64,000 bases of DNA from Comamonadaceae bacterium (lineage in GTDB: Bacteria > Pseudomonadota > Gammaproteobacteria > Burkholderiales > Burkholderiaceae_C): NCBI GenBank assembly GCA_947450765.1, contig CANFXC010000006.1, positions 1-64,000 of the forward strand, written 5' to 3'. Of the stretch, positions 10,731 to 33,316 are shown in pieces. The notes beneath the pieces were generated by a model. The model was not told where the DNA came from and ran no database searches. It saw nothing but the letters and a program-made list of their open reading frames with translations. Position numbers and translations under genes: made by a program. Positions within the stretch are counted from its first letter, which is position 1, and each line of letters begins with the position of its first letter.

Positions 10731-10853
10731 ATGGCTTATTCGCCTTGCCCCATTTTGTCCATTGACCCGATTCAAGACGAATCTATTGCCTGCCAAGCCT
10801 GCACATTACCGTGTGCAGGGGAGGGCAGCGAAAAGAGGAATCCATTCTTATGA
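10731..10853 (+). CDS. Candidate 40-aa Cys-rich small ORF translationally coupled to ilvH
   Basis: ATG 10731 preceded by GAGG; MAYSPCPILSIDPIQDESIACQACTLPCAGEGSEKRNPFL*; stop TGA overlaps the ilvH ATG (ATGA). Confidence 0.4.
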   Translation: MAYSPCPILSIDPIQDESIACQACTLPCAGEGSEKRNPFL

Positions 10854-12485: not shown

Positions 12486-12520
12486 TGCAGGCCGGGCCTT
12501 TTTGGCCCGGACGGTTATCG

Positions 12521-12555
12521 GAAAAAGCCGCGCAAGCGATTGCGCGGCTTTTTCA
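12521..12555 (+). terminator. Intrinsic terminator downstream of ilvC
   Basis: GAAAAAGCCGCGCAAGCGATTGCGCGGCTTTTTC; an additional GCCGGGCC/GGCCCGG hairpin lies just upstream. Confidence 0.88.
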
Positions 12556-12689
12556 TTTGAAGTCTCATCATGTCAGCTGGATGCATGCGCAAGTGTGGCG
12601 TTTGGTATCCTCCATGCTTGATGGCGTATTGCCTTCGTTAATAAATGCTGCTGACGAACTGGCGGTTAACCCGACCTGGAGCGTGTCCC

Positions 12690-13502
12690 ATGAGTGATGG
12701 TGAAGATTCTGAATTGGCTTCTGGCGAAGTCCTGGCGCGCAAGCGCAGCAAGGGCATTTACATCCTACCCAACCTCTTCACGCTGGCGGCCCTGTTCGGT
12801 GGTTTTTATGCCATCGTGATGGCCATGAACGGCCGCTTCGACCAAGCCGCTATTGGCGTTTTTTGTGCCATGGTGCTAGACAGTCTGGATGGTCGCGTGG
12901 CGCGCATGACGAACACGCAGAGCGCCTTTGGTGAGCAGATGGATTCGCTGTCGGACATGGTGTCTTTTGGTGCCGCTCCGGCTTTGATCGCTTACGTGTG
13001 GGCCTTGACCAGCCTCGGGCGTTGGGGCTGGATTGCGGCGTTTGTTTATTGCGCTTGTGCCGCCTTGAGGCTGGCGCGCTTCAACGTCAATACCGCCGTC
13101 GTTGACAAACGGTTTTTCCAAGGTTTGCCTTCGCCTGCTGCGGCTGCGTTGGTGGCCGGCTTCATCTGGTTGTTGACTGACCTAGGTGTGAGCGGTCAAG
13201 AAGTCCGCTGGCCCATGTTTGCCCTGATGCTCTATTCGGGCTTGACCATGGTCACCAACGTCCCTTTTTACAGTTTCAAGGATTTGAGCTTGAAGCGTAG
13301 CGTGCCCTTCGTGGTGATCGTGGCGATTGCGTTAGGCATTGCGGTGATCAACATTCATCCCCCCATCGTGATGTTTGCATTGTTCGTGGTGTACGGCTTT
13401 TCGGGCTATGCACTGTACGGCTGGCGCAAAACCAAGGGCTTGCAGACCAGCGTGATTTCAACCTCAACGGATGAACCCGACGAACGCGGTTTGCACAAAT
13501 AA
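12690..13502 (+). CDS. pssA: CDP-diacylglycerol--serine O-phosphatidyltransferase
   Basis: YILPNLFTLAALFGGFYAIV, DSLDGRVARMTNTQSAFGEQMDSLSDMVSFG CDP-alcohol transferase motif. Confidence 0.94.
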   Translation: MSDGEDSELASGEVLARKRSKGIYILPNLFTLAALFGGFYAIVMAMNGRFDQAAIGVFCAMVLDSLDGRVARMTNTQSAFGEQMDSLSDMVSFGAAPALIAYVWALTSLGRWGWIAAFVYCACAALRLARFNVNTAVVDKRFFQGLPSPAAAALVAGFIWLLTDLGVSGQEVRWPMFALMLYSGLTMVTNVPFYSFKDLSLKRSVPFVVIVAIALGIAVINIHPPIVMFALFVVYGFSGYALYGWRKTKGLQTSVISTSTDEPDERGLHK

Positions 13503-13527: not shown

Positions 13528-13556
13528 TTGACCGATCGCCCAAATTTTGTGATACA
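13528..13556 (+). promoter_or_regulatory. Candidate sigma-70 promoter for the leuA leader transcript
   Basis: TTGACC (13528-13533), 17-nt spacer, TGT-GATACA extended -10-like box (13551-13556). Confidence 0.45.
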
Positions 13557-13565
13557 TTGTTTGCT

Positions 13566-13619
13566 ATGAATTTGATTTCGCTTGCCCTACTACTACCTCC
13601 CTGCGGGCGGAGACGGTAG
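13566..13619 (+). CDS. Leucine leader peptide MNLISLALLLPPCGRRR*
   Basis: 17-codon ORF with 5 Leu codons, including three consecutive CTA; followed by an intrinsic terminator and then leuA. Confidence 0.82.
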   Translation: MNLISLALLLPPCGRRR

Positions 13620-13639
13620 CGCGCACGCGTTATCCCATC

Positions 13640-13674
13640 AACGGCCCGTCTGCATTAGCAACGGGCCGTTTTTC
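13640..13674 (+). terminator. Attenuator terminator upstream of leuA
   Basis: AACGGCCCGT-CTGCATTAGC-AACGGGCCGTTTTTC: GC-rich stem followed by a U-tract. Confidence 0.82.
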
Positions 13675-13724
13675 ATTGGCAAGTCGGTTTTTTGTTTTTT
13701 ACTTTTCACACTGTCGAGATAAAA

Positions 13725-15428
13725 ATGTTGAACACACCCTCAAGCAAATACAAAGCCTTCCCGCCGGTTCATTTGACCGACCGTACTTGGCCAGATGCCG
13801 TGCTGACTGCCGCGCCGATCTGGTGCAGTGTCGATTTGCGGGACGGCAACCAAGCCTTGATTGAGCCGATGGACATTCCCCGCAAGCTCAAGATGTTCGA
13901 GATGCTGGTGAAGATCGGCTTCAAAGAAATTGAAGTGGGTTTTCCATCTGCTTCTCAAACAGAATTTGACTTTTTGCGCCGCCTGATCGACGAGAACCTG
14001 ATCCCGGATGACGTCACGATTCAAGTGCTGACGCAGGCGCGCGAGCCCTTAATTCGGCGCACGTTTGAAGCGCTCCAAGGTGCCAAGAAAGCCATCGTCC
14101 ACCTGTACAACGCAACAGCACCTGTCATGCGCCGGGTCGTGCTTGGCATGAATGAAGACGAGATCGTTGCTTTGGCCATTGCCAACGCTCGTTTGTTTCA
14201 GCAACTGGCTGCAGCGCAACCGGCGACGCGCTGGACTTTTCAATACTCGCCTGAGATGTGGTCGGGCACCGAGCTGGCATTTTCAAAACGCGTGGTCGAT
14301 GCCGTCACTGACGTGTGGCAACCGACACCCGAGCACAAGTGCATCATCAACTTGCCATCGACGGTCGAGCATTCAACGCCGAATATTTTTGCCGACATGA
14401 TGGAGTGGATGCATCGGCATCTGGCGCGGCGTGACGCGATCGTGATCTCAGTTCATCCGCACAACGACCGCGGCACAGGCACAGCCGCAGGCGAGTTGGC
14501 GTTGATGGCTGGTGCAGATCGGATTGAAGGCTGTTTGTTTGGCAATGGCGAGCGGACCGGCAATGTCGATCTGGTCAATATCGCGCTGAATCTTTACACC
14601 CAGGGCGTCTCGCCCGGCCTCGATTTTTCGGACATCGATGAAGTGCGGCGAACGGTCGAGTATTGCAACCAGTTGCCGGTGCATCCGCGTCATCCGTATG
14701 CCGGTGATTTGGTTTACACATCGTTCTCCGGCTCGCACCAAGATGCCATTAAAAAAGCCTTCGCCGCGCGTCGTGACGGCGACGTCTGGGACATACCTTA
14801 TTTGCCGATTGACCCGATGGACTTGGGGCGCAGCTATGAGGCTGTCATTCGCGTCAACAGCCAGTCGGGCAAGGGCGGCATTGCCTATTTGCTTGAGCAT
14901 GAATTTGGCCTGGAGTTGCCGCGTCGTCTTCAGATCGAATTCAGTCAAGTGGTGCAGAGCGTGATGGACGCCAGTGGCAAAGAACTCACAGCGCAGGACC
15001 TGTTCGACTTGTTTCAGACCACCTATGGTGTGCAGACCGTGGTCGCCCCTGAGCGCCTGATGATTGAAGAAAGCACGCGGCCTGAAGGCAAGGTTTTTAG
15101 CATCAAGGCCGACGTGCGCTTGGGTACCCAGGTCCACGCCATTCACGGCAGCGGCACCGGACCCATAGACGCCTTTGTGGCGGGTCTGATGGCGGCGACC
15201 GGGCAGCTGATTCGCGTGCTTGATTACCGCGAACATTCGATCGGATCGGGCGCGAGCGCACAGGCCGTGGCTTACCTCGAATTGCGCATCAATGAGGAGA
15301 CGCTTTTCGGCGTCGGTATGGATGGCAACATCGTCTCGGCTTCACTCAAGGCCATTGTTTCAGGGCTGCAGCGAAGTCAGGCTGGACGCGGCAATTTAGC
15401 CTCTGTCAGCGCTACCATTGCAGATTGA
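13725..15428 (+). CDS. leuA: 2-isopropylmalate synthase, long (LeuA type 2) form
   Basis: [50 protein letters not shown]; about 567 aa. Confidence 0.93.
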
Positions 15429-15466
15429 CGGATTGAATAAGCTCAGCAGACTTCAGGAGACACGAC

Positions 15467-17005
15467 ATGGCCGATAAATTGATTATTTTTGATACCACCT
15501 TGCGCGATGGTGAACAATCTCCGGGTGCGTCCATGACCCGTGACGAAAAGCTGCGCATTGCACGCCAGCTTGAGCGACTCAAAGTCGATGTGATCGAGGC
15601 TGGTTTTGCTGCCAGCTCGAACGGTGATTTTGAGGCCGTGCAGGCGATCGCCAATGCGATCAAGGACTCGACGATCTGCTCGTTGGCACGCGCCAATGAC
15701 CGCGATATTTCACGCGCTGCTGAAGCCCTGAAAGGCGCACGTTCAGCGCGTATTCACACCTTCATCGCCACCAGCGCCCTGCACATGGAGAAGAAGCTTC
15801 GCATGACGCCAGAGCAGGTGTTGGAGCAGGCCAAACTGTCTGTGCGATTTGCGCGCAATTTGGTGGCTGATGTTGAGTTCAGCCCGGAAGACGGCTACCG
15901 CAGCGACATCGATTACCTGTGCCGCGTGATCGAAGCTGTTATCCAAGAAGGTGCGACCACCATCAACGTGCCCGACACCGTGGGTTATGCCGTGCCGGAG
16001 CTTTATGGCAACTTCATCAAGACACTGCGTGAGCGCGTGCCCAACAGCGACAAGGCGATCTGGTCGGTGCATTGTCACAACGACCTCGGCATGGCGGTGG
16101 CCAATTCCTTGGCCGGCGTGATGATTGGCGGTGCACGCCAAGTCGAGTGCACCATCAATGGCTTGGGTGAACGTGCTGGCAATTGCGCACTTGAAGAAAT
16201 CGTCATGGCTGTGAAAACGCGTCGTGATTACTTCAATCTCGACATGAATGTCGATGCCTTGCAGATTCTGGCGGCCAGCCGGATGGTCAGTCAGACAACC
16301 GGTTTTGTGGTGCAGCCTAACAAAGCTGTGGTCGGCGCCAACGCCTTCGCCCATGCCTCCGGCATCCATCAGGACGGCATGCTCAAGGCCCGTGAAACTT
16401 ACGAGATCATGCGCGCCGAAGATGTCGGCTGGACAGCCAGTAAGATCATCTTGGGTAAGCTCAGCGGCCGTAACGCTTTCAAGCAGCGCTTGCTAGACCT
16501 CGGCGTGCAGATGGAAAGCGAGACCGACATCAACAACGCCTTTGCAAAATTCAAGGAGCTGGCTGACCGGAAAAGCGAGATTTTTGATGAAGATATCTTG
16601 GCGCTGGTCAGCGATGCCAGTGTTTTGCAGGAGCGCGAGCCATACGGCTTTGTGGCTTTGTCGCAGCACAGCGAAACCGGTGAGCGCCCGCAAGCCAGTG
16701 TCACCTTCACCGTCAATGGGCAAGAGGTTCAAGGCAACTCAGACGGCAATGGACCGGTTGATGCCTCACTCAAAGCGATTGAAACCCATGTCAAGAGCGG
16801 TGCTGAAATGGTCTTGTACTCGGTCAACGCGATCAGCGGATCGACCGAAAGCCAGGGCGAAGTCACCGTGCGTTTGCAAAGCAGTGGCCGCATCGTTAAC
16901 GGCGTCGGATCTGATCCTGATATCGTCGTGGCATCTGCAAAAGCCTACTTGAGTGCCTTGAGTAAGCTGCACAGCAAGGCTGACCGTGTGCCTGCGCAGG
17001 GTTGA
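15467..17005 (+). CDS. leuA: 2-isopropylmalate synthase, short (LeuA type 1) form
   Basis: [41 protein letters not shown]-terminal LeuA dimerisation/regulatory domain. Confidence 0.95.
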
Positions 17006-33119: not shown

Positions 33120-33254
33120 TTTGACCTGCCGTGGTCGCTGTCTCGGGCGAAACTGTCAACCTCGTGTCATCGTTCAGTGGCACAATATTGGATGTTTCTG
33201 AAGGCCCTTCCTGCCACAGTCGCATCCGCGAATCGGTCCAGCCGTGCTGCGGAA

Positions 33255-33305
33255 GGTTAATTAACAAGCTTTAACCAGCTAATGTTTCCCAAAGGGAAAC
33301 GGAGG
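33255..33305 (+). ncRNA. sucA-type 5'UTR cis-regulatory RNA (Burkholderiales sucA motif candidate)
   Basis: GGTTAA-N10-TTAACC hairpin, then GTTTCCC-AAA-GGGAAAC hairpin abutting the GGAGG SD of sucA. Confidence 0.6.
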
Positions 33306-33316
33306 TCAGCGTTCTC

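Follow-up and report, generated by a model that had tools for sequence, protein, structure and literature searches.

The 64,000-nt stretch of DNA analysed here (the window), whose nearest named relatives are Polaromonas and other Comamonadaceae, carries pssA followed by a 17-codon ORF, a terminator hairpin and then two tandem 2-isopropylmalate synthase genes of different types (Table 1). The first leuA, with its ATG at 13725, matches the Pfam families HMGL-like, IPMS_D2 and LeuA_dimer. The type of the second gene is found directly behind the leader in relatives. The window thus has one leader and two unlike leuA genes in tandem (13725-17005); relatives often retain just one of them directly behind the leader. 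This tandem duplication, together with a promoter abutting the leader ATG, was absent from the sequence-only reading of this DNA that we followed up.

Table 1. Features of the leuA leader region, in window coordinates
Feature	Coordinates	Strand	Evidence or remark
pssA, CDP-alcohol phosphatidyltransferase family	12645..13502	+	Pfam PF01066; upstream neighbour of the leader in most relatives
Extended -10 element TGTGATACATT	13548..13558	+	TGTGnTACATT conserved in 85 aligned relatives
Leader peptide ORF MNLISLALLLPPCGRRR, then stop	13566..13619	+	ATG 13566, TAG 13617-13619; synonymous variation in relatives
Control codons 8-10, CTA CTA CTA	13587..13595	+	Conservation in relatives
Predicted 1:2 hairpin, CUACU with GGUAG around Leu codons and stop	13590..13619	+	Fold; helix pair counts
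Segment 2, predicted antiterminator 5' strand, core CGGGC 13604-13608	13603..13610	+	2:3 fold -23.4 kcal/mol; pair counts
Segment 3, predicted 5' terminator arm and antiterminator partner	13640..13653	+	Fold; pair counts
Predicted intrinsic terminator (3:4) with U tract	13640..13673	+	-22.0 kcal/mol
First leuA, 2-isopropylmalate synthase, 567 aa	13725..15428	+	Pfam
Second leuA, 512 aa, other type	15467..17005	+	Pfam; starts 38 nt behind the first leuA

At the gathering score, Rfam finds two RNAs alone in the whole window and nothing at the leader. One is the ilvH RNA (RF02993, 95.3 bits, 10776-10843), which lies between ilvB and ilvH, so that the BCAA cluster of the window carries a second cis-regulatory RNA. 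The other is the SucA RNA motif (RF01070, 79.2 bits, 33220-33311). A strong hairpin, AAAAAGCCGCGC..GCGCGGCTTTTT, stands 3' of ilvC (12519-12573) and could terminate transcription on both strands. Weak Rfam matches at 12500-12583 (Leu_leader, Thr_leader) were rejected as a leader since they correspond to this hairpin.

The leader ORF is preceded by an extended -10 element. Among 85 aligned relatives, the bases T-17, G-16 and A-9, which our search pattern left free, are found in 83 to 85. The pattern permitted 6-9 nt between the -10 element and the ATG; the spacing is 6 or 7 nt in 85 of 91 leaders. No other site in the window combines the extended -10 pattern with an ATG 5-9 nt downstream. We found no conserved -35 element in the 85 aligned relatives and no Shine-Dalgarno sequence before the leader ATG. 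At the usual distance from the -10 element, the transcript would start at about 13565-13566, so that its 5' end would coincide with the ATG or lie one base upstream of it. With this placement a leaderless mRNA is probable, in contrast to E. coli leuL. For B. cenocepacia, sites of this kind are known in general to yield leaderless transcripts (PMC4603805). A generic promoter and terminator scan missed both the promoter and the terminator, as its rules demand a -35 element and a terminator loop of at most 8.

The leader peptide has 5 Leu among its 17 residues, including the three consecutive CTA codons, and all base-level statements of the sequence-only reading proved right. It had also described CTA as rare nearby; in 33 long ORFs of the window we count 38 CTA among 1432 Leu codons (2.7%), indicating that the triplet run is not casual. 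At the 80 loci described below, leuA itself gives a further baseline, with 0.2% CTA (7/3938). Among leaders of 17 codons, CTA occupies codon 8 in 77 of 81 and codon 10 in 73 of 81. Across relatives, the Leu codons of the leaders are 57% CTA, 33% CTG and 5% TTA and TTG together. We considered that CTA might be kept merely for pairing with the UAG stop. This was rejected: leaders with a TGA stop still use 44% CTA, compared to 0.8% in the corresponding leuA genes, which reveals a preference at the codon level. In the Salmonella leu leader, replacement of CUA by CUG reduced sensitivity, and a theoretical ranking of leu control codons puts CUA best, CUG second and UUG/UUA last (PMC1183508). The order in the leaders, CTA > CTG >> TTG/TTA, is the one this theory predicts (PMC1183508).

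The ORF also varies as a coding sequence would. Amino acids are conserved while third positions change: over codons 2-13, mean diversity is 0.30 at first, 0.17 at second and 0.37 at third positions. For example, 65 of the 76 unique leaders have Ala at codon 7, spelled GCA, GCC, GCG or GCT. The element therefore has the leader ORF of leu-type attenuators, with successive codons for the product of the pathway, and this ORF is presumably translated.

Downstream of the ORF, the GC-rich terminator that the sequence-only reading had proposed before leuA was recovered, with arms AACGGCCCGT (13640-13649) and ACGGGCCGTT (13661-13670) and TTTTT at 13669-13673. In 51 relatives, 96.8% of the cells of this helix are paired. 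The antiterminator proposed from CGGGC and GCCCG likewise held: segment 2 can pair with GCCCG at 13644-13648 or with CCGTCTGC at 13646-13653 of segment 3, and, when segments 1 and 4 are omitted from folding, the 2:3 pairing appears in the minimum-energy fold of 91/91 leaders, compared to 36% of shuffles. The proposed pause hairpin, CCTCCC-TGC-GGGCGG, stood in outline and not in extent; the 1:2 stem that is conserved extends further, with a CUA codon of the run pairing with the region of the UAG stop. Its outer helix has 93.5% of cells paired and its weak inner part 74.5%. Over the leaders, median energies are -13.1 (1:2), -19.7 (2:3) and -21.4 kcal/mol (3:4), and the entire window leader folds better than 200/200 dinucleotide shuffles (z -4.3). 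Thus the intrinsic terminator, the mutually exclusive antiterminator and the 1:2 protector hairpin of a leu-type attenuator are all predicted here.

In the 51 leaders, the share of paired cells is 90.7% in helices 1:2 and 3:4 together and 89.0% in 2:3, compared to 17-52% in slid controls. The alignment of leuA upstream regions that had been suggested as a check confirmed the Leu run; covariation of the stems is modest, with few compensatory changes because the GC cores are nearly invariant. Compensated terminator changes can be seen by eye in more distant members, for example GGCTCG/CGAGCC (L172) and AGCCCG/CGGGCT (L173). The predicted helices are supported more by the upkeep of pairing and by the anatomy than by covariation.

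Next, we looked at how far the element extends. Within the genus, a DNA search found it in 30 of 37 genomes, the source genome counted. A LeuA protein search added 80 loci, 79 of them with upstream sequence, and inspection identified a leader upstream of leuA at 79/79 of these Comamonadaceae-type loci, typically encoding M(N/K)xISLALLLSPxGRRR before the stop. A covariance model (R1) built from 51 leaders matches 80 of 101 family genomes (79 of 100 genera). Loss of the leader or of its Leu codons at orthologous leuA genes, which would have spoken against attenuation, is thus not what these loci display. Among the fetched family matches (L141-L204 and L206, down to E of about 0.01), 64 of 65 precede leuA, the exception being L203. 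Of the 21 family genomes that R1 does not match, ten bear a leader on inspection (one weak); at leuA of some family genomes (L207, L209, L215) it was not detectable. Outside the family, R1 matches at leuA in three genomes only, all of family f10, and a class-wide genome sample gave no further match at leuA. The R1 matches L122-L140 and L278-L281 lie away from leuA; they were rejected as leaders and taken as chance. The leaders L178-L202 and L210-L217 end in ...LLLGVPRAR or PRVR, with TGA stops and the same terminator core; our guess is that they are Burkholderia-type.

In other betaproteobacterial families, we found a second type of ORF before leuA, ending in ...LLLRPAR before the stop (CTGCTGCTGCGCCnnGCGCGCTAA; L221-L235, L245, L248-L276). 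It uses mostly CTG and has a -10 element, TATATT or TATAGT, 6-9 nt ahead of its ATG, and by this spacing it would be leaderless too. Among 299 genomes of the order, its 3'-end pattern matches 54 and the reversed pattern two; 30 pattern matches were taken as loci, 26 with leuA and four away from it. The LLLRPAR leaders share the end GCGCGCTRA with those leaders in the window's family that finish in ...PRAR, which suggests, short of proof, a common descent of both leader types. A recognisable intrinsic terminator is absent in 31 of 34 LLLRPAR-type leaders. A Rho-like, C-rich composition as a contrast between the types was unsupported, C and G counts after the stop being similar. Tentatively, and with more doubt than confidence, we propose that one ancestral leaderless Leu-sensing leader might guard leuA across Betaproteobacteria with different outputs: an intrinsic terminator in the window family, and in the LLLRPAR families a switch that needs no terminator and acts through Rho or on translation.

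Taken as a whole, the element very probably attenuates transcription of the leuA genes by a ribosome-mediated mechanism that responds to charged tRNA-Leu, with a leaderless start and a terminator/antiterminator switch. The sequence-only reading had named a leucine attenuator, and what this predicts at the sequence level is found: coding conservation, control codons, helices and a family-wide position before leuA. We infer from these features the start site, stalling, termination and leucine dependence. Transcription would begin at or beside the leader ATG and the ribosome would load on the leaderless 5' end. With ample leucine, it would reach the stop (nt 52-54 of the ORF) and mask segment 2 (CGGGC; nt 38-43), so that segment 3 pairs with segment 4 and the terminator arises ahead of leuA. 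Under a shortage of leucyl-tRNA, above all of the CUA-reading species, the ribosome would stall at about codons 8-9, and segment 2, left uncovered, would pair with segment 3; this would prevent the terminator and allow transcription of leuA. If no translation occurs, the 1:2 hairpin would hide segment 2, making termination the default, as in classical attenuation. Using textbook values for ribosome footprint lengths, codons 8 and 9 are likelier sensors than codon 10, since a stall at codon 10 would already mask part of segment 2.

We weighed three other explanations. The hairpin sits just downstream of pssA and would also halt read-through from it. Nonetheless, that it is a mere terminator of the pssA transcript and the ORF incidental is exceedingly improbable: a conserved promoter element of its own precedes the ORF, its residues are conserved under synonymous change, its CTA use is extreme and its antiterminator partner is conserved. 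In addition, the three f10 loci retain the leader ahead of leuA, and the stretch fetched for them contains no match to PssA. The lack of an intrinsic terminator in most LLLRPAR-type leaders implies that another output must exist in those families, and control mainly through leuA translation or Rho could be imagined here as well. For the window-type leader this is highly improbable, given its strong conserved terminator with a U tract and its competing helix.

Some leader peptides, such as Sinorhizobium trpL, have roles in trans, and the C-terminal GRRR of the window-type peptide is strongly conserved. However, pairing of segments 1:2 and 2:3 fully explains GGGCGGAGACGGTAG, so selection at the peptide level is unnecessary there, and the peptides of four relatives (and one padded) have no Pfam family match. 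An additional action in trans of the peptide, as a small protein, or of the short attenuated RNA, as an sRNA, is accordingly very unlikely. Attenuation by terminator and antiterminator is the reading we retain.

The closest known system is leuL of E. coli and Salmonella (Rfam RF00512, Leu_leader), which is alike in its short ORF with a CTA run, its alternative hairpins and its terminator before leuA. E. coli leuL has 28 aa, four CTA codons and a Shine-Dalgarno-like GGAG upstream, whereas the window leader has 17 aa, three CTA codons and an apparently leaderless start. The RF00512 covariance model gives no match over 13566-13676, even with E up to 5. Leaderless leader peptides, in which an ORF at the transcript 5' end feeds an attenuator, include Sinorhizobium trpL and Corynebacterium leaders; compared by description, these share the layout of the window leader and concern other amino acids or lineages. 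Proteobacterial attenuators were reportedly surveyed by Vitreschak and colleagues in 2004. The E. coli ilv leader peptides share the general anatomy of BCAA-operon attenuators (PMC6123439) but, again by description, mix Ile, Val and Leu codons, while the conserved run of the window type is Leu only. The actinobacterial LEU element also has a Leu-run leader ORF before leuA; there, the Leu codons pair with the leuA Shine-Dalgarno sequence in a pseudoknot, without classical attenuation (PMC1262725), and a comparison by description sets the window leader apart by its terminator/antiterminator pair.

The sequence-only reading had thought this leader probably not described, which agrees with the open-access literature, Rfam and Pfam. 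A review mentions putative leaders in various Gram-negative species (PMC6123439). In the open-access literature we found no description of a betaproteobacterial leu attenuator, and earlier mention elsewhere is possible; leuA is absent from the main text of a study of B. cenocepacia start sites (PMC4603805) and from that of a study of premature terminators (PMC2965389). The switch is of a known type, its leaderless start is the chief difference, and the Comamonadaceae-type leader is new as far as the open-access literature, Rfam and Pfam show.

These results indicate leucine attenuation as the rule in a very large lineage that has no matching Rfam family, and many genomes gain a conserved gene that had gone unannotated. 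How else a Leu leader may control leuA is a testable question prompted by the relatives without a terminator in other families. The leaderless start would offer a clean model of leaderless translation during starvation. Finally, the order CTA > CTG >> TTA/TTG over dozens of leaders tests the selective-charging theory developed for E. coli against independent evidence from evolution.
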